64,000 nt of DNA from assembly GCF_000725345.1 (NCBI RefSeq), contig NZ_CP008852.1:4084001-4148000 (forward strand), read 5' to 3'. Below the pieces are notes generated by a model. The model did not search any database, had not been told where the DNA came from, and saw nothing but the letters and a program-made list of their open reading frames with translations. Below, piece by piece: positions 2,224 through 46,068 of this stretch. The DNA comes from Pelosinus sp. UFO1 (lineage in GTDB: Bacteria; Bacillota; Negativicutes; DSM-13327). The position numbers and the translations under genes are program-made. Each line of letters starts with the position of its first letter. Positions within the stretch are counted from its first letter, which is position 1.

Positions 2224-3312
2224 TTATTTAAGTTTATCTTCTGTATAATATCCGCTCTCAACTAGTATTTTCGCGTAGTTCGATTTATCTACAGAAACAG
2301 GAACTAAGAGATAAGAAGGTACTACTTTTACACCATTATTGTAGGTCTTATCATCATTGGTTTCTGCTTTTTTGCCATTTAATAATGCATCTACCATATC
2401 AACAGTTACTTTAGCAAGGTCTCTAGTATCTTTGAACACTGTCTGTGCTTGTTCACCCTTGATAATTGATTTAATAGAAGGTATTTCAGCATCCTGTCCT
2501 GTAACAATAGGCATTGGTTGACTTGGTGTACCATAACCAACCGCTTTTAAAGAAGAAAGGATACCAATACTAATACCATCATAAGGAGATAATACTGCAT
2601 CTACTTTAGCACCAGAATAATTCTTACTTAATAAATTATCCATTCTTGCCTGAGCAGTAGCACCATCCCATCTTAATGTAGCGCATACGCCCATGTCCAT
2701 TTGTCCACTTTTTACAATTAACTTCTTAGAATCGATATAAGGTTTCAGAACTGACATAGCGCCATCAAAAAACATGAACGCATTATTGTCATCAGGTGAT
2801 CCACCAAAAAGCTCAATATTAAAAGGTCCTTTACCTTCTTTTAAGCCTAGGCTTTTTTCAATGTAGGTAGCTTGTAAAACCCCTACTTTAAAATTATCAA
2901 AGGTTGCATAGTAATCTACATTTGGAGTCTTCTTAATTAAGCGGTCATAGGCTATGACCGGAATGTTTTTATCTTTTGCTTTTTGCAGTACATTCGTTAA
3001 AGATTCACCGTCAATGGATGCAACAACTAAAACATTAGCACCCTTTGTAATCATGTTTTCTATTTGGGCAAGTTGATTTTCTACATTGTCTTCCCCATAT
3101 TGCAAATCAGTTTCATACCCCTTGGCTTGCAGTTGTTTTACAATATTCTCACCATCTGCAATCCATCTTGCTGAAGACTTTGTTGGCATTGCGATACCTA
3201 CTTTTTTCTTACCACTAGCAGCCGAATTCGTTGATGAATTCGTACTTGATCCGCATGCTGCCAGCAAAAGTACCATAGCACACATGAGTAATAGAGCGAT
3301 CACCTTTTTCAT
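2224..3312 (-). CDS. chvE: Multiple-monosaccharide ABC transporter substrate-binding lipoprotein
   Basis: Extracytoplasmic sugar-binding lipoprotein of the importer, Peripla_BP_4 fold, 362 aa from the chosen start. The longer frame adds 12 residues (beginning MITEIKEEG), but the ATG at 3312 sits behind GAGGAGGGGG and opens a proper signal peptide, [13 protein letters not shown], ending in the lipobox LLAAC with the lipidated Cys near residue 20. A Ser/Thr/Asn linker follows. The mature part carries ChvE-type motifs such as [23 protein letters not shown] and [14 protein letters not shown]. The ChvE/MmsB-system call is strong; the exact sugar is open. Confidence 0.93.
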
Positions 3313-12575: not shown

Positions 12576-12965
12576 TTGGCTTTGAAAGTGGATTTCCAGA
12601 ATACCTTAGAAACTTTTGTTTTTTCAAATCTTCCCGTCTTAATGAATATAACCAATGCCATGCATGTTGTTGTTTCTGATACAATAACGCCAACAACTCC
12701 TACTAACCCAACCATTCCTGTTTCCACTCCAATTGATACTACGATAACCCCTATACCTACCATCGTAATTACACCTGATGTTTTAAAAGCCATTCAAGCT
12801 TATACATTAAATAACTTTCCCGATATAGGACTCCCCCAGGATATTCAAGAAATTGCAAAAGAATTTTTAGCCAATCTCCCACCCATCGTACCTGTTACTC
12901 AAAATACTGCTACAACTCTTAATACTGCCACATCTACGAATCCTATTATTTCTGGCCAAGTCTAA
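12576..12965 (+). CDS. Small orphan protein with Thr/Pro-rich linker
   Basis: 129 aa, no family recognised. TTG start with AAAGGATG 6-7 bases before it. An N-terminal 30-residue amphipathic part (LKVDFQNTLETFVFSNLP) is followed by a 40-residue Thr/Pro/Ile linker (PTTPTNPTIPVSTP), then a helical segment (VLKAIQAYTLNNFPDIGLPQDIQEIAKEFL) and a Thr/Asn-rich tail. There is no signal peptide or membrane segment. Coding status is supported by the ribosome site, codon pattern and a terminator just downstream, but not by homology. A competing minus-strand frame over its first half looks like a shadow. Confidence 0.6.
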   Translation: MALKVDFQNTLETFVFSNLPVLMNITNAMHVVVSDTITPTTPTNPTIPVSTPIDTTITPIPTIVITPDVLKAIQAYTLNNFPDIGLPQDIQEIAKEFLANLPPIVPVTQNTATTLNTATSTNPIISGQV

Positions 12966-15120: not shown

Positions 15121-15158
15121 TAAAAGGAAAAGCAGGCTATGACCTGCTTTTCCTTTTA
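15121..15158. terminator. Bidirectional intrinsic terminator
   Basis: 16-bp stem TAAAAGGAAAAGCAGG/CCTGCTTTTCCTTTTA, 6-base loop, between the convergent LysR gene and the CheX-like gene. Confidence 0.93.
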
Positions 15159-15197: not shown

Positions 15198-16064
15198 CTA
15201 TGCCCCAGTCATGATTAAATCCATTCTACCAATACCAGTATCGATCGCTACTGCATAATTGGATTTCCCCTTAAAAGCAGCACCTTTTGTAACAGTTTGT
15301 GGCTGTAGATCAAGATCCAATCCCACATTAGAAAGATTAATACAAAAAAGGCCATTAGCAACATTCAAAAACTCCCCTATACTATCAAAAGCAAGCTCAT
15401 TCATTTCACAAATTTCTTCACCACTATAGCTACGTGCTAATGTAAGCAATACACTATCTTCAGCAGTAAAACTACTATGTAGCGTAACATCTCCCATCAT
15501 ACTTTGTGAAACAAACCATCGATTCTGATCCTGTTCATGGGCTATTGATATAAGTAAGGGACTGGCGTCCAAAAAACGAACCATAGCTCGAAGAAAAAGT
15601 GAGATATAATCATAATACAATTCTACATTTTCATCTTCTGGTGAGAAGTTTATTTGAGTACGAATTCGCTCTTTAAGAACTGATACATCAGACTGTCCGC
15701 CTAAATTACTTTGTTTTTTGTAATCTTCTAAAACATGCTCCAGTTGTGCTAAAGTCATAAAACCTTTATCAACTAATGTCTGACCAAATTTGAGATGACT
15801 ATTTTCCTGTGTGTCTAAGAGAATCATAAGTTGCTCTTCTGATAAATAACCTCCGTCTAAAGCTATCTCCCCAAATCGTTTATCAATAGTATGTTGTAGC
15901 CTGTAAATTTCCTCTACTTGTTTAGCATTCAAAAATCCTTGATTAATGGCCAATACACCTAACTTTACTTGCACTGCACGTCTACTTTCAAGAACTTCCT
16001 GTACTTGAGTTGGTGTAAGTAGCCCTTGGTTTAATATATATTGAGCAAAAAATTGACTAAACAT
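15198..16064 (-). CDS. MshEN-like repeat protein fused to a CheX-like domain
   Basis: 288 aa with two parts. Residues about 5-120 hold consecutive units of the form KLGxLAINQGFLxxxQVEEIYxLQ, RFGEIALDGGYLSEEQLMxLLxTQ and KFGQTLVDKGFMTLAQLEHVL, fitting the 24-residue motif of GspE/MshE N-terminal (MshEN) domains, which in MshE bind c-di-GMP. Residues about 150-288 resemble CheX/CheC chemotaxis phosphatases, with the helix motif DSIGEFLNVANG carrying the expected E-xx-N. It follows the CheY-like gene directly, with its ribosome site inside that gene's end. Likely role: a phosphatase or modulator of the adjacent CheY-like protein, perhaps gated by c-di-GMP. The domain reading is by eye. Confidence 0.75.
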   Translation of the reverse strand: MFSQFFAQYILNQGLLTPTQVQEVLESRRAVQVKLGVLAINQGFLNAKQVEEIYRLQHTIDKRFGEIALDGGYLSEEQLMILLDTQENSHLKFGQTLVDKGFMTLAQLEHVLEDYKKQSNLGGQSDVSVLKERIRTQINFSPEDENVELYYDYISLFLRAMVRFLDASPLLISIAHEQDQNRWFVSQSMMGDVTLHSSFTAEDSVLLTLARSYSGEEICEMNELAFDSIGEFLNVANGLFCINLSNVGLDLDLQPQTVTKGAAFKGKSNYAVAIDTGIGRMDLIMTGA

Positions 16065-16439
16065 TTAGGGCTCCTTTCGAATGATGTCATTTACTGCTTT
16101 CACGATTTGATTACTATTGTATGGTTTTTGAATAAAATCGATTGCCCCTAGCTTAAGAGCCTCTAGCAATTTAGTAGCAGTACCTGTCGAAGAAAGCATA
16201 ATCACCCTTGCCTTATTATCTATTTCTTTAATTTTTTTCAAAGCATCTAAACCGCTTACTTTTGGCATAACAATATCCATAAATACTCCGTCAGGACAAA
16301 ACTGCACATACGCTTCAATCACTTCTTGTCCATCTTTCGCTTCAAAAACTTCACAACTTAGCTTTTCTAATTCTGCTCTTAATTTTTTTCGCAATAATAA
16401 TGAATCATCGCTAATCAAAATTTTCAGTGGTTTATGCAA
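16065..16439 (-). CDS. CheY-like single-domain response regulator
   Basis: 124 aa from a TTG at 16439 behind GGGGAGGATTTTT; a longer frame starting MRHIGSQF has no ribosome site. Receiver only: acidic pair D11/D12, phosphoacceptor D55 (VFMDIVMP), switch residues in MLSSTG and the conserved Lys in IQKPY. It is the middle gene of an HD-GYP, CheY-like, CheX-like operon, so phosphorylation by a CheA-type kinase elsewhere and dephosphorylation by the next gene product are reasonable inferences. Confidence 0.9.
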   Translation of the reverse strand: MHKPLKILISDDSLLLRKKLRAELEKLSCEVFEAKDGQEVIEAYVQFCPDGVFMDIVMPKVSGLDALKKIKEIDNKARVIMLSSTGTATKLLEALKLGAIDFIQKPYNSNQIVKAVNDIIRKEP

Positions 16440-16488
16440 AAAAATCCTCCCCTTACAAGTAAATTGACTACCTATATGCCGCACTTTT

Positions 16489-17475
16489 TTACATTGCTAA
16501 ATTATGTAGAACGGACCTTTTACCTCCTACATCAAATTTTTTAACATGCTCTATTAAACAAGCCAAAACATGAGTATCTAATTGCCCGGACATCTGAAAC
16601 ATCATTATTTCTATTGCTTCTTGTGGTGAAACGCTCCTTTTGTAGTAACGATTACTAATAAGAGCGTCATATACGTCAGCTACAGCAATAATTCTAGCTA
16701 ACATAGTAACCTCTGTGTCGCTACACCCATAAGGGTATCCTGAACCATCAATTCTTTCATGATGTTGAAGAACTGCATTTAAAACTGCATTAGGTACAAT
16801 ATCTGTTTGCGCCAGCAATTGATAACTATAGCTTGCATGTATTTTAGCAATATTGAACTCTTCCAAATTTAGCTTATCAGGTTTACTTAACACTTCAGAT
16901 TTAAATCGAGTTTTACCAATATCATGCATTAATCCGGCCAAAGTAAGGTTCAAAATATCACTGTCACCATAGCCGAGCCACCGTCCAAGATAACCAGAAA
17001 GTAGAGCAACATCTAATGCGTGCCTATACAGATAATCTCCAGATGAGGAATCTGTGTGTAATTGTATAAAAGAATCCTTTTGAGATAACCTTGGGTAGAT
17101 TCTAGTATTAACCAAATTAAGAATCGTATCTAAAGGTATAACCCCATGATACCCAGTACGCAAAAAAATCCGTTTCAATTCTGTTTCTATTTTAGAATGC
17201 GCCTCTGTAGTAACTTGTCCATGTTTTTCTATGGTTGTACTATTTTCCAAGGTTATAACAATATCCGAAACCATTTTCTCAATTTCAGCTATGTTAAAAT
17301 CAGCGGTTGCGACCTCTAGCACATCGGCACCTTCTACTGCCCATCCTTTTAAGCAAGATAGTAAATACTCATTTACCACCGTTCCTTGCCCAAAAATCAT
17401 TTTTGCATTTGGACTGACAAATACCTGATTAAGAGTCATACCTATCTTGATATCTGATAAAGGTAAATAACTCAA
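16489..17475 (-). CDS. HD-GYP domain protein (putative c-di-GMP phosphodiesterase)
   Basis: 328 aa. An N-terminal region of about 120 residues without recognised motif precedes the HD-GYP domain, with GLMHDIGKTRF near residue 190 and HHERIDGSGYPYG near residue 240; the metal ligands and GYP triad are intact, so hydrolysis of c-di-GMP to pGpG/GMP is expected. GAAGGAGGGGC precedes the start. First gene of the operon with the CheY-like and CheX-like proteins, 50 bp upstream of the former. Confidence 0.93.
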   Translation of the reverse strand: MSYLPLSDIKIGMTLNQVFVSPNAKMIFGQGTVVNEYLLSCLKGWAVEGADVLEVATADFNIAEIEKMVSDIVITLENSTTIEKHGQVTTEAHSKIETELKRIFLRTGYHGVIPLDTILNLVNTRIYPRLSQKDSFIQLHTDSSSGDYLYRHALDVALLSGYLGRWLGYGDSDILNLTLAGLMHDIGKTRFKSEVLSKPDKLNLEEFNIAKIHASYSYQLLAQTDIVPNAVLNAVLQHHERIDGSGYPYGCSDTEVTMLARIIAVADVYDALISNRYYKRSVSPQEAIEIMMFQMSGQLDTHVLACLIEHVKKFDVGGKRSVLHNLAM

Positions 17476-21112: not shown

Positions 21113-22867
21113 ATGTCAATGGTAATTAGTACAAACATGTCCGCTTTAAACACTACGAATCAGTTAAACAAAAACACTACGCTTATGAATTCATCATTAG
21201 AAAAATTGTCATCTGGGTACTCTATCAACAGTGCCTCTGACAACGCAGCTGGATTAGCCATTTCTGAAAAAATGCGTAGCCAAATCCAAGGTCTCGACCA
21301 GGCAAGTAGCAACTCTCAAGATGCTATATCCTTGGCTCAGACAGCAGATGGTGCCCTCGATGAAACTACATCCATCCTAGAACGCATGCGCGAGCTAGCT
21401 GTACAGGCTTCCTCTGATACATTAACCGATGATGACAGAACATCCATCCAAGATGAGGTCGATGAACTCTCTCAGGAAATTGACCGCATTTCTAATGACA
21501 CTGAATACAACACCAAGAAATTGTTAAATGGAGATAGTGGTGCAACTACATCTGTATCTGGTACAAATTCAGCTGCAATTAATACTGCTGCAACTGTTGC
21601 CGGAAATAATACAGATTCAGGCACTTATGTAGTAAATTACACTGCAGTAGCAACGCAAGCAACTACAGGTCTTGCTACATCCTCTACTACAATTGCTGCT
21701 GCAACTGATTCTGCATCTGCTTTTGCAGGAGACATTGAAATCAATGGAACAACAATAACCGTTGATTCCAACGATACTATAGAAGGTGTTCTTGAGAAAA
21801 TAAATGATGAAACAGCTACTACTGGCGTTACTGCCTCATTGAATACAGATACAACTGGTGCGTACTATATTTCATTAAATAATGCTACCTACGGCAGCGA
21901 TTCTGAAGTTACTGTAGCTGCTGATAATGCTACCTTAACTGGCCTATTTAATGCAACAGCAAGCACGACCGCCACAAGTGTTACCGTCAATGGTACCGAC
22001 GCTGCAGGAACCATTAATGGAGCAGCAGCCACCGCTGATGGTAATACCTTAACGGCTTTTGGTCTGACTGTTACTGGTAACGATGCAGAACTAGCAGCAC
22101 TTAATACTGCTTATGCCACTACTAATGCAACTGCGGTTGCTCTTGTTGCTAGCACTAGTACTACTGCTGCTACTGACTTAACTGCCTTAGTTTCAGCACT
22201 ATCAGCCTCTACTGCATCAACATCAGCAGCTGACAACGCAGCAGCAGCTGCTTATACCAGCGCTGTCTCTGGCGGTAATGCTACTACTATAGCTACTGCT
22301 AAAGCAGCTCTATATACTACAGCAGCAGCATCTACTGACGCAACTGTAGTAACTGCAGGAACAACGTCCGCTGCATCTGATACAGCTGCTACTAACGCTA
22401 AAAATGCGTTATCACTTATTCCTGTTGCTACTTCTGATGTTACCGTTGATTCTTCATCTGCTCTAACCTTCCAGGTCGGCGCAAACTCAAATCAAACAAT
22501 GACGCTTTCCATCAGCGATATGGATGCCAGCTCACTAGGAGTTGCTGGTGAAGATGCTGATACAGGTCTTGATATGAGCACAGTAGATAGTGCGAGTAAT
22601 GCTCTCACTGCTATAGATGCAGCAATTAAAAAAGTTTCTGCAGAACGTTCTAATCTAGGCGCTGTCCAGAACAGTCTAGAGAGCAATATTAACAATTTGG
22701 ATACTGAAAGTGAAAACTTAACTTCTGCTGAATCCAATATCCGCGACACAGATATGGCCTCAGAAATGGCAGAATACACCAAGCTAAGCGTCATAACTCA
22801 AGCCGCTACTGCTATGTTGTCAAAAGCCAATCAACAACCACAGCAAGTATTGACTCTGTTACAATAA
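21113..22867 (+). CDS. Flagellin
   Basis: Filament subunit, 584 aa. Conserved D0/D1 N-terminus (residues 1-140: SMVISTNMSALNTTNQLNK, SGYSINSASDNAAGLAISEKMRSQI, TILERMRELAVQASSDT) and C-terminus (last 100 residues: AIKKVSAERSNLGAVQNSLES, SNIRDTDMASEMAEYTKL). About 340 central residues are Ala/Thr/Ser/Asn-rich and low complexity, lacking Cys, the surface-exposed variable region. The protein is larger than the 270-400 aa common in Bacillota. Last residues (QQPQQVLTLLQ) are the typical export end. GGGAGGA precedes the ATG. Probably exported with FliS, encoded in the facing operon. Confidence 0.97.
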   Translation: MSMVISTNMSALNTTNQLNKNTTLMNSSLEKLSSGYSINSASDNAAGLAISEKMRSQIQGLDQASSNSQDAISLAQTADGALDETTSILERMRELAVQASSDTLTDDDRTSIQDEVDELSQEIDRISNDTEYNTKKLLNGDSGATTSVSGTNSAAINTAATVAGNNTDSGTYVVNYTAVATQATTGLATSSTTIAAATDSASAFAGDIEINGTTITVDSNDTIEGVLEKINDETATTGVTASLNTDTTGAYYISLNNATYGSDSEVTVAADNATLTGLFNATASTTATSVTVNGTDAAGTINGAAATADGNTLTAFGLTVTGNDAELAALNTAYATTNATAVALVASTSTTAATDLTALVSALSASTASTSAADNAAAAAYTSAVSGGNATTIATAKAALYTTAAASTDATVVTAGTTSAASDTAATNAKNALSLIPVATSDVTVDSSSALTFQVGANSNQTMTLSISDMDASSLGVAGEDADTGLDMSTVDSASNALTAIDAAIKKVSAERSNLGAVQNSLESNINNLDTESENLTSAESNIRDTDMASEMAEYTKLSVITQAATAMLSKANQQPQQVLTLLQ

Positions 22868-24850: not shown

Positions 24851-26800
24851 TTAACTACTAGTAAGTGATGACAAGGCTGAGAGTTGCGAATTCATGGTAC
24901 TAATATAGGTTTCTAACGTAGTGTATTTGTCATAAAGGGTGTCTTCCAAATCATCTAGACGATCTTCCTCGTCATCAATTTCCTCTTGATACTTATCAAT
25001 CAGTGTAGTCAGAGTGTTATCCGTATCAGTAGCATCGTCCTCAGTACCAGCTTTTTCTAATAATGTTCCTTTATTTCCAGAACTATCACGGGTGGTTGAA
25101 ATATACTTTTGCATGGTATCGTAAAAACGGTAGGAAATACCTTCCTCCTCGTACCTAGTACTCAATGCACTTGATGACAAACTCCGCACCGTTGAATTAT
25201 TCGGATAGGTAGATGACTTCTGGGTAAAAAGATTCATAACTGCTTCTGGATCACTTGCGATGGCTGCCGTCAGTGTATCTTCATCGATATATAGTGCACC
25301 ATCCTCGTCATAGGTACCACTGCTTATACCGATGCTAGAAAGACTGATTGTCGAACCAGAAACTGAATCAATCAAAGATGTTCGTAAATCACTTAATAAA
25401 GCTTCCAAAGTGGAATCACTTTCCAATAGGCCTACTTTTGCTTTGGTTTCCCAGGCGGTAATCTCGTCATCCGTCATTTCTTCTTTTTCATCGTCCGTGA
25501 GTGGTGGGTAATCTGAATCCGCATTTTCATCGATCGCAGTATTAATGGTATCAATTAGCGTATTATAATCGTCCACGAAAGCGCTAATCAAATCATACAC
25601 ACCATCAGTATCTTGCGTTACAGTTACCGTAGCCTCCTCAGTCGTTTCTGCATTCAGAGTATAAGTTACTCCATCAAGAGTAATGGTGTTAGAGCTACGG
25701 GTCAAAGCCTGATCATCTATCGTTACCTTGGCATCGACACCGGCAGTAGCAGTAGTCAGCAGCAATGTTGCAAAGTTGCTCGTACTCGAGTCGGTGTCGG
25801 TCACTGTCAACGTATTGCCAGCACCTGTATCATCGGCCGTCATCACGAGCTTACCGGTAATTGTATCATAGGTCATTGTAACCCCAAGGTCAGCCGAGTT
25901 GATTTCGGACATCATCGTAGCGAGAGTCACAGTACTTGCAAAGCTTTTTGTAGTGCCGTTGATCGTCAATGAGACTCCGGAAGTGCCAAATGTCGACGCT
26001 GTAGACGAACTTAACTGCTCGGCAATTGTCGCTAACGTATCGGAGGTGTCTAAGCGGTTAGAGAGTATTGCACCCGTGCCAAAACCCAGTTCGCTTAAGC
26101 CCGCATTATCTGCTGTACCATCACTATTGGCATCGGTGGCGCTAACAGTAATCGCCTGTACACCACTATTTGTGGCTGAGGTGATCTCTAGATATCCAGA
26201 GGAGTTTGTACTGACAGTAACTTTACCCGAACCAACTGCAGTATCGATCGCCGTTTGCAGCGCAGTGATCGCAGCGGTACCGGTGGTACCATTCACATTA
26301 TCAAGATCGACTGTATAATCTGTACCATCCAGGGTCATGACAAAGCTTTCATCGGTGAGGCTCGTATAATCCGCTACCGCTGAACCTTGCACCTCTTTGG
26401 AAACGCTAGCGCTACTTGTGAGCGTGGCTGCCGTGGCTAGTTGAGTTACTGTTACGGTATGACTCCTTGCACTGGCTGTACTGGCAGCAGTCACCGAAAC
26501 TGCACTATCGCTACTAGTGGAAGCGTATTGTAAAAAATTACTTGCTTTCATGATGCTACTGGACGAGGTTGTACTGAAATACTCACTGGAAAAATCTTGA
26601 ACATCAGTGATAATGTCACGGTATGCTGTCTGTTTCCATTCAGCCGTTTGTAACTTTTGTTGCAATTTATTTAGCTTCTTTGCTTTCTCGGCAGTTACCA
26701 GTTGTTCAACGATGCCATCTACATCAATCCCGGAAGACAAGCCCGTAATCCGAGTTGTTCCATTGACTGTGCTGGTTGTTATACTACTACTACTAGACAT
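24851..26800 (-). CDS. fliD: FliD, filament cap protein
   Basis: 649 aa. The N-terminus shows the FliD_N pattern (ITGLSSGIDVDGIVEQLVTAEKAKKLNKLQQKLQTAEWKQ in part: GLSSGIDVD then LQQKLQTAEWKQTAYRD) and the C-terminus the coiled FliD_C pattern (EDRLDDLEDTLYDKYTTLETYISTMNSQL). The middle is a Thr/Ser/Ala-rich region of exposed domains with VKVGLLESDSTLEALLSDLR. It caps the growing filament and folds flagellin. GGGAGGTGGAGTAA precedes the ATG. Longer than the usual 450-500 aa because of the enlarged middle. Confidence 0.93.
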   Translation of the reverse strand: MSSSSSITTSTVNGTTRITGLSSGIDVDGIVEQLVTAEKAKKLNKLQQKLQTAEWKQTAYRDIITDVQDFSSEYFSTTSSSSIMKASNFLQYASTSSDSAVSVTAASTASARSHTVTVTQLATAATLTSSASVSKEVQGSAVADYTSLTDESFVMTLDGTDYTVDLDNVNGTTGTAAITALQTAIDTAVGSGKVTVSTNSSGYLEITSATNSGVQAITVSATDANSDGTADNAGLSELGFGTGAILSNRLDTSDTLATIAEQLSSSTASTFGTSGVSLTINGTTKSFASTVTLATMMSEINSADLGVTMTYDTITGKLVMTADDTGAGNTLTVTDTDSSTSNFATLLLTTATAGVDAKVTIDDQALTRSSNTITLDGVTYTLNAETTEEATVTVTQDTDGVYDLISAFVDDYNTLIDTINTAIDENADSDYPPLTDDEKEEMTDDEITAWETKAKVGLLESDSTLEALLSDLRTSLIDSVSGSTISLSSIGISSGTYDEDGALYIDEDTLTAAIASDPEAVMNLFTQKSSTYPNNSTVRSLSSSALSTRYEEEGISYRFYDTMQKYISTTRDSSGNKGTLLEKAGTEDDATDTDNTLTTLIDKYQEEIDDEEDRLDDLEDTLYDKYTTLETYISTMNSQLSALSSLTSS

Positions 26801-43927: not shown

Positions 43928-45616
43928 TTAGAACTTAAACCTTGCAACAACTTCTTGCAACTCTACGGCCATATGTGCCAGTGCTTGACTGGAAGAAGCA
44001 ATTTCTTGCATAGAGGCAGATTGTTCCTCCGTAGCTGCAGAAACAGTTTGGGTTTGACCACTTATATCATTACTAATTTGATCAACTTTTTGGATATAAA
44101 CACCGACTTCTTGGCTATCATTGACCATCTGCTGAATGGAACTAGAAATATCTTTACTTTGATCCGATACTTGGCTAATTAGCTTAGAAATCTCCGCAAA
44201 TGATGTCCCAGCAACATTTACTACATTGATACCCGTACTTACCTCACGAGTTCCTTCCTCCATTGCGTTAACTGCTTTGTCAGTTTCTCCTTGAATTTCA
44301 CTAATCAAAGTGGCAATCTGTTTTGCTGCTTCTTGAGACTGTTCCGCTAGTTTTCTGACTTCATCCGCTACCACAGCAAAACCCTTACCTTGTTCTCCTG
44401 CCCGAGCAGCTTCAATTGCAGCATTTAGAGCCAACAAGTTGGTTTGACCTGCGATACTGGAAATAGCATCAACAATTTGCCCGATCTCTTTTGAACGCTC
44501 ACCAAGGTTAGTGATCACTTCTGAAGACTCGCCCACTTTTCTATCAATTGTACCCATTTGTTTAACAGCTGCCTCAATAGCACGCCTCCCCTTTTCTGCG
44601 GCATCGGCAGCTTGATCACTTATGTTCATAGAATTAACTGCATTACCTGCAACCTGTTGAATACCAGTTGCCATCTTATCCGTAGTCGTTACAGTCTCAC
44701 TGATATTCTGGCGTTGTTTCTCTGTATCTTCTGCCACTTCAATAATTGTCATCGCTACTTGTGTAGCGGCTTGCGCTGATTGCTCTGCACTCGCAGTTAA
44801 TTCCTCAGAAGATGCCGCAACCTGTTCTGCGGAAACCGATACTTGACGAATAATCGTCCTAAGGTTAGAAAGCATTTGGTTAAAGGCCACAGCGAGTTGT
44901 CCAATTTCATCACTCGACTGATAGCTAATATTCTCAATCGATAAGTCGCCATTGGCTATTTTGCTAGCAGCTTTGGCAACTTCACCCACTGGGCGTGAAA
45001 TACTGCGGGAAACTAAAAAAGCGATGATCATAGACATAATAATTACAATAATATTAACCACAACGAGGATAGTACGGGAACTTTTCGCATCCTCTGCATA
45101 TTTTCCTTGCTCTTGCTTTACGTAATCTTTAGTAGAACTAACTAGCTCTTCGGTAGCGCTCATTGTAGCTTTATAAGGCTTTCCAGCTTGAGACATATAG
45201 ATAGCCACTTCATCTAGTTTATTTCCTTGTTTAGCAGCCATAGATTTTTCTGCTATTTCTTCATAAGCTGCTTTTTCTTTTTTAATCGTTATCAAGAACT
45301 GATTGGATTTTTCGGTATGAAGACTTTTTTCCAGCCAAGTTATCCGTTCATTAGCTTTTGTTTTATATTCATTATAAACTTTAATATCATTGGGGTCCCC
45401 GGTAAAATTAAATCGGCGCATGACAACGGCTTCATTTGCAATATCTGAAGCAGCCCCCTGCACCATTTCCATTTTTTCAATATTTACTTTGCTAAACTCT
45501 TGATAAGATGACGTTATCTCACCAATTTTCCAGTATGTAAACCCACTCATCAGAATAACGAGAGTCAAAACAACGAGAAAACCTCCTGTTATTTTCTTTC
45601 CTACGGTCAAGTTCAT
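43928..45616 (-). CDS. Methyl-accepting chemotaxis protein
   Basis: 562 aa from the ATG at 45616 ([12 protein letters not shown]) behind AAGGAGGATTATTT; 46 extra upstream codons lack a ribosome site. Membrane segment 1 at residues about 11-30, a four-helix-bundle (4HB_MCP) ligand domain to about 180, membrane segment 2 ([20 protein letters not shown]), HAMP, then MCPsignal with the hairpin tip [16 protein letters not shown]. The end has no CheR/CheB pentapeptide. Stimulus unknown. Confidence 0.95.
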
Positions 45617-46068
45617 AAATAATCCTCCTTTTTTTATAAAGACATTATTGCTAAAGATAAAAAGTAGCTTACTATAAAGGCTCCCACCCCTAAATATAAG
45701 CTTACATCCACCAGCCGATATGTTATTATTACTTAGATGCGACGAGACTTTCATCCCAGCATTTTAAAAGGATATCAATACAATCACTAAACTATACAGC
45801 TAAATTTCGACAAAATAATATAAACTCCTTTTCAATATGTCATTATTTTACCAAATTTTAAATTGTTTCTCTGTTTATCCCATATGCCAATAGTCCTAAT
45901 TAAAGCTTACGCTAGGTACTAATTAAGTAAACGGATAGGATTTATAATAATCATGAAGATGGACGCAACGAAACCCAGTTCTCATATTGAGAGCTGGGTT
46001 TCTTAAATAGCATTCACATGCCCTGTTAGACCTTTTGAAACCATTAAACTTCCTCATTATTTATGAAG
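45617..46068. other. Spacer with one terminator-like hairpin
   Basis: Contains the stem GAAACCCAG-T-TCTCA/TGAGA-G-CTGGGTTTC at 45970-46002 (one mismatch, weak T-run), which may end the HAD gene transcript. No gene, riboswitch or sigma-28 promoter found in the rest. Confidence 0.5.

Follow-up and report, generated by a model that had tools for sequence, protein, structure and literature searches.

CheX enzymes insert the Glu and Asn of an E-x-x-N motif into the active site of a receiver. The second messenger c-di-GMP is also linked to chemotaxis signalling by the PilZ protein MapZ and by the CheY-like Cle proteins, and inputs of this type act on CheR or on the receiver and motor and are not known to act on a receiver phosphatase. 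To our knowledge, the c-di-GMP route to chemotaxis in flagellated Bacillota is poorly known. The original prediction was unaware of any description of the MshEN-CheX fusion, but CheX is named among the domains found with MshEN, with no function given, in Wang et al. 2016 (PMC5013675; text and supplementary table/figure). No functional study of MshEN with CheX was found in the literature searched.

Here we examined a 288-aa MshEN-CheX protein encoded beside a CheY-like receiver in Pelosinus sp. UFO1, within a 64,000-nt stretch of contig NZ_CP008852.1 (the window). We lean slightly toward a system of receiver and CheX-type phosphatase in which an MshEN part would sense c-di-GMP and c-di-GMP would set the lifetime of the phosphorylated receiver.

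Locus layout

An HD-GYP gene, a CheY-like receiver gene and the gene of the 288-aa protein had been placed in a row, and all three open reading frames were recovered on the minus strand of 15198-17475 (Table 1). The receiver probably starts at the inner of its two candidate codons, TTG 16439, behind AAGGGGAGG; the product read from there has the receiver length seen in relatives. The ATG of the MshEN-CheX gene directly follows the receiver stop codon, and the two genes appear to be translationally coupled. The hairpin beyond the MshEN-CheX gene is likely an operon-ending, bidirectional terminator; it was not among the elements listed by a separate scan of the window. An Rfam scan of the window returned no match, and hence no known c-di-GMP riboswitch before the operon, and promoter-like sites in the window were no more frequent than in shuffled sequence. 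Elsewhere in the window are a flagellin-like gene whose long middle part is rich in Ala, Thr and Ser (21113-22867), FliD (24851-26800) and a chemoreceptor gene (43928-45754); no more than about 10 kb separates the receiver/MshEN-CheX pair from flagellar filament genes. A Pro/Thr-rich 129-aa ORF at 12576-12965 had no Pfam match.

Table 1. Features of the locus, in window coordinates
Feature	Position	Strand	Details
HD-GYP phosphodiesterase gene	16489..17475	minus	328 aa, TTG 17475; HD_5 97.7 bits
CheY-like receiver ORF	16065..16484	minus	longest ORF starts at GTG 16484
CheY-like receiver, likely product	16065..16439	minus	124 aa from TTG 16439; Response_reg 91.6 bits
MshEN(x4)-CheX fusion gene	15198..16064	minus	288 aa, ATG 16064
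Motif U1, residues 5-28	15981..16052	minus	degenerate in the window: F5, A7, R28
Predicted c-di-GMP site, U2 (34-57) + U3 (63-86), residues 34-86	15807..15965	minus	model and conservation
Motif U4, residues 92-115	15720..15791	minus	degenerate in the family: Y/F at position 24
CheX phosphatase domain (putative), residues 145-288	15201..15632	minus	E-x-x-N motif = E231-F-L-N234
RBS AAAGGAG of the MshEN-CheX gene	16071..16077	minus	within the 3' end of the receiver gene; read from the sequence
15-bp stem hairpin	15122..15157	.	3' of the MshEN-CheX gene; read from the sequence

The HD-GYP gene

The HD-GYP protein carries the HD, HHE, DGSGYP and ADVYDAL motifs and matches structure 4mcw (E 7e-26). 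An intact copy lies directly upstream on the same strand in most Pelosinus, as would fit a three-gene feedback module to which HD-GYP activity is integral. However, the gene adjoins the pair in Pelosinus only, and in P. fermentans JBW45, another Pelosinus and one neighboring genus, all of which have the pair, the catalytic domain is gone and only the N-terminal 80–110 aa remain before the receiver (L041:5146-5478, L044:1052-1342 and L010, complement 2850-3095; a Pfam scan of the JBW45 remnant gave no match). For these reasons we rejected the HD-GYP protein as a core part and consider the three-gene module improbable. The set of three originally proposed stands for the window, where the HD-GYP gene is intact, but not for the conserved unit.

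The conserved gene pair and its distribution

A search of 60 related genomes for the fusion protein found matches in 28, mostly over the full length; 29 sequences were aligned. A scan of contigs from one genome per species gave 80 loci in Negativicutes, Bacilli (Lysinibacillus, Ureibacillus, Cytobacillus, Paenibacillus and others) and Clostridium; one metagenome-assembled genome (MAG) labelled Alistipes was also among the fusion loci. Full-length MshEN-CheX proteins were present in 12 of 299 sampled genomes of the phylum, and the viral contigs searched held no relative. Three genomes (L027, L028, L029) keep the CheX half, with the MshEN half weakly matching or absent.

The original prediction of a CheY-like receiver beside the fusion was borne out well beyond the window. 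The receiver gene lies directly upstream of the MshEN-CheX gene, within 82 nt, in 77 of the 80 loci, with an 8-nt overlap in 28 loci, and it lies directly downstream in one further locus. The conserved unit is a bicistron of a receiver and an MshEN-CheX putative phosphatase, found across Negativicutes, Bacilli and Clostridia. Numbered from GTG 16484, the phospho-site residues of the receiver are D26, D27, D70, S98 and K120; D26/D27 were present in 77 of 78 aligned rows and the other three in all 78. Since the receiver gene is adjacent and intact, the simplest reading is that the 288-aa protein would be the phosphatase of its cognate phosphorylated receiver.

The other flanking genes are mostly unrelated housekeeping genes. 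In six Negativicutes loci (L048, L049, L052, L054, L055, L113), a membrane kinase of about 1070 aa stands directly before the receiver; the one scanned (L054:2342-5551) has HAMP, weak Hpt and HATPase domains, and the other five loci are similar. Judged by these domains the membrane protein is a CheA-like kinase, and the six loci may hold a complete kinase-receiver-phosphatase system. Sporomusa and related MAGs (L058:3297-6873, also L057, L065, L068, L069) have a chemoreceptor, a STAS-domain protein, the receiver and MshEN-CheX in one row. At two loci (L046:1567-2878, L095:3230-4539), a gene for a receiver-CheX fusion overlaps one for CheX alone, a few kb ahead of the pair, and the genome of the window has neighboring CheX genes of a similar kind (G000:C1:4698452-4699212). 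CheA genes were found in 33 of 33 tested carriers and 22 of 29 non-carriers, and GGDEF genes in 33 of 33 and 25 of 29, respectively (raw counts that ignore kinship); this co-occurrence is consistent with a c-di-GMP-tuned receiver phosphatase.

The CheX half

An AlphaFold2 model of the 288-aa protein, built from 63 sequences for the protein alone with no ligand and no partner, reached pLDDT 88.9 and pTM 0.72. Model residues 145-288 superposed on CheX 1squ with Z 18.0 (2.3 A over 143 residues), and the Borrelia CheX-CheY complex 3hzh scored Z 17.4, confirming the CheX-like part with E-x-x-N that had been read from the sequence. Solved CheX structures also match the protein by sequence (E 2.7e-5), and in this comparison E231 and N234 align to the CheX E-x-x-N. 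Both residues are present in 81 of 81 homologues, and E231, F232, L233, N234, N237 and G238 are invariant in the 81-sequence alignment, where conservation of E-x-x-N is partly by selection, EFLN having been part of one of the two search patterns behind the 80-locus set. In the pattern-free set, E-F-[LVI]-N is kept in 29 of 29 sequences.

The MshEN half

The N-terminal half contains four tandem 24-residue MshEN units with 5-residue spacers, starting at F5, K34, R63 and K92. Searching with MshEN and CheX profiles, the check originally suggested, gave a divided result. NF053729 (NCBIfam; c-di-GMP-binding, MshE-related) exceeded its cut-off of 38 with 69.7 bits, whereas the 288-aa protein was not among the matches of Pfam MshEN PF05157, which found only one other good match in the whole genome, and Pfam CheX PF13690 gave 24.8 against a cut-off of 27 over the whole protein and 27.2 on the domain in a genome search. 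Of 63 homologues, 60 matched NF053729 at E<=0.01, and solved MshE/PilF structures match the 288-aa protein by sequence. Three of the four units conform to the MshEN motif in its relaxed form (Wang et al. 2016); when the protein was shuffled 200,000 times, only 107 of the shuffled sequences held at least one match.

The two central units have the R/K-L/F-G start and terminal Q of an MshEN receptor. The R/L/G contact positions, on which the original prediction had staked its reading, are present as K34-L35-G36 (U2, ending in Q57) and R63-F64-G65 (U3, ending in Q86), and in PilF a Lys in the first motif position does not preclude c-di-GMP binding. Model residues 32-89, spanning U2 and U3, superposed on residues 7-64 of MshE in its c-di-GMP complex 5htl (Foldseek: 53 columns, 0.9 A, 32% identity), with a VIA Z of 10.2 against 5htl and a Z of 9.6 against PilF GSPII-B. 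At an offset of 25, MshE R9, G11, Q32, R38, G40 and Q61 become K34, G36, Q57, R63, G65 and Q86, and the family profile on 5htl has the same register; run against genomes, this profile most often aligns ATPase-sized proteins of 550–600 aa to about 29-87. The 24-residue units are thus MshEN-like, as first proposed, and a four-helix pocket resembling that of 5htl is predicted in U2+U3.

G36, Q57, G65 and Q86 are kept together in 75 of 81 homologues, while complete motif pairs occur for U1+U2 in 41 of 81 and for U3+U4 in none; U1 has Gly at position 3 in 64 of 81 and Gln at position 24 in 41 of 81. We also considered U3+U4, the best NCBIfam stretch, as the binding pair and rejected it because in relatives U4 lacks the Gln and mostly also the Gly, and it is U2+U3 that aligns to MshE. 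The model and the alignment together predict a c-di-GMP site in U2+U3, flanked by U1 and U4. With its ligand contacts conserved, c-di-GMP is the likely effector.

The MshE stacking leucines L10, L25, L29, L39, L54 and L58 correspond to L35, V50, Y54, F64, L79 and L83, two of the six (Y54, F64) being aromatic here, and the Leu29 position, Tyr in the window protein, is His in 67 of 81 homologues. Loss of one conserved hydrophobic contact in MshE lowers affinity more than 10-fold according to Wang et al. 2016 (PMC5013675), so with Tyr or His at the Leu29 position the affinity for c-di-GMP could be low. The same substitution and the degenerate U1 and U4 would suit MshEN units that have lost c-di-GMP binding and act as a protein-protein or dimerization scaffold in an ordinary receiver and CheX phosphatase pair; degenerate, non-binding MshEN domains are known in XpsE (same source) and PilF GSPII-A. 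A mere scaffold, however, should not retain exactly the ligand contacts, as most homologues do around an MshE-like pocket in the model, and we hold this loss of binding to be quite unlikely.

The MshEN part could instead bind c-di-GMP and control location, or docking to another machine such as the flagellar switch, leaving the phosphatase constitutive. FliM, FliY and CheC share the CheX-like fold with the model (Z 8–11), including the FliM middle domain, and MshEN domains elsewhere sit on large motors (PilB/MshE). ATPase-sized MshEN-like proteins are moreover widespread in the sampled genomes. Against this, most loci have the pair by itself, no consistent pilus or flagellar neighborhood was found among the loci examined, and there was no sign of contact with a motor. 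Control of location with a constitutive phosphatase is, in our judgment, unlikely.

Proposed mechanism

In the preferred reading of a c-di-GMP-controlled phosphatase, CheA, or the adjacent membrane Hpt kinase in some relatives, would phosphorylate the receiver at Asp70 (numbering from GTG 16484), and the CheX domain would strip the phosphate using E231/N234. One c-di-GMP would bind the U2+U3 pair and change phosphatase activity, either by altering access to the E-x-x-N helix or by altering a CheX dimer, so that c-di-GMP would determine how long the receiver remains phosphorylated. In Pelosinus, the adjacent HD-GYP enzyme may lower c-di-GMP and reset the sensor. The receiver could act on the flagellar motor, or it could serve as a decoy or phosphate sink for CheA.

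Direct control by c-di-GMP of how fast a dedicated receiver is dephosphorylated, widespread in Bacillota and without transcription, PilZ or motor binding, is in our estimate as likely as not. If true, the pair would be a response-regulator phosphatase under second-messenger control, conserved from relatives of Clostridium and Bacillus through to Negativicutes, and would link a second messenger to phosphorelay lifetime by a route that bypasses those three. The system is soluble, consists of two proteins and retains its catalytic and ligand residues, which makes it directly testable in vitro.

Comparison with known systems

The 288-aa protein shares its fold, E-x-x-N motif and CheY-like partner with CheX among the CheC/CheX/FliY CheY-P phosphatases (T. 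maritima 1squ/1xko, Borrelia 3hzh). It differs in its 120-residue N-terminal MshEN array, in an identity of 13–19% and in the invariant signature E-F-L-N-x-x-N-G of its own family. With the MshEN of V. cholerae MshE (5htl) and Thermus PilF GSPII-B it has in common the 24-residue motifs, the 5-residue spacer, the register and the G/Q contacts, but its tandem motifs number four rather than two, it lacks both the MshEN_C subdomain and an ATPase, and Phe and His/Tyr replace two of the stacking leucines of MshE. The partner receiver, the bicistron, the four-motif layout and the mechanism are not described for MshEN-CheX in the accessible parts of Wang et al. 2016. New here are the conservation of a bicistron that includes a receiver, the arrangement of four motifs with the predicted site in U2+U3, the spread of the pair and the demotion of the HD-GYP gene from it.
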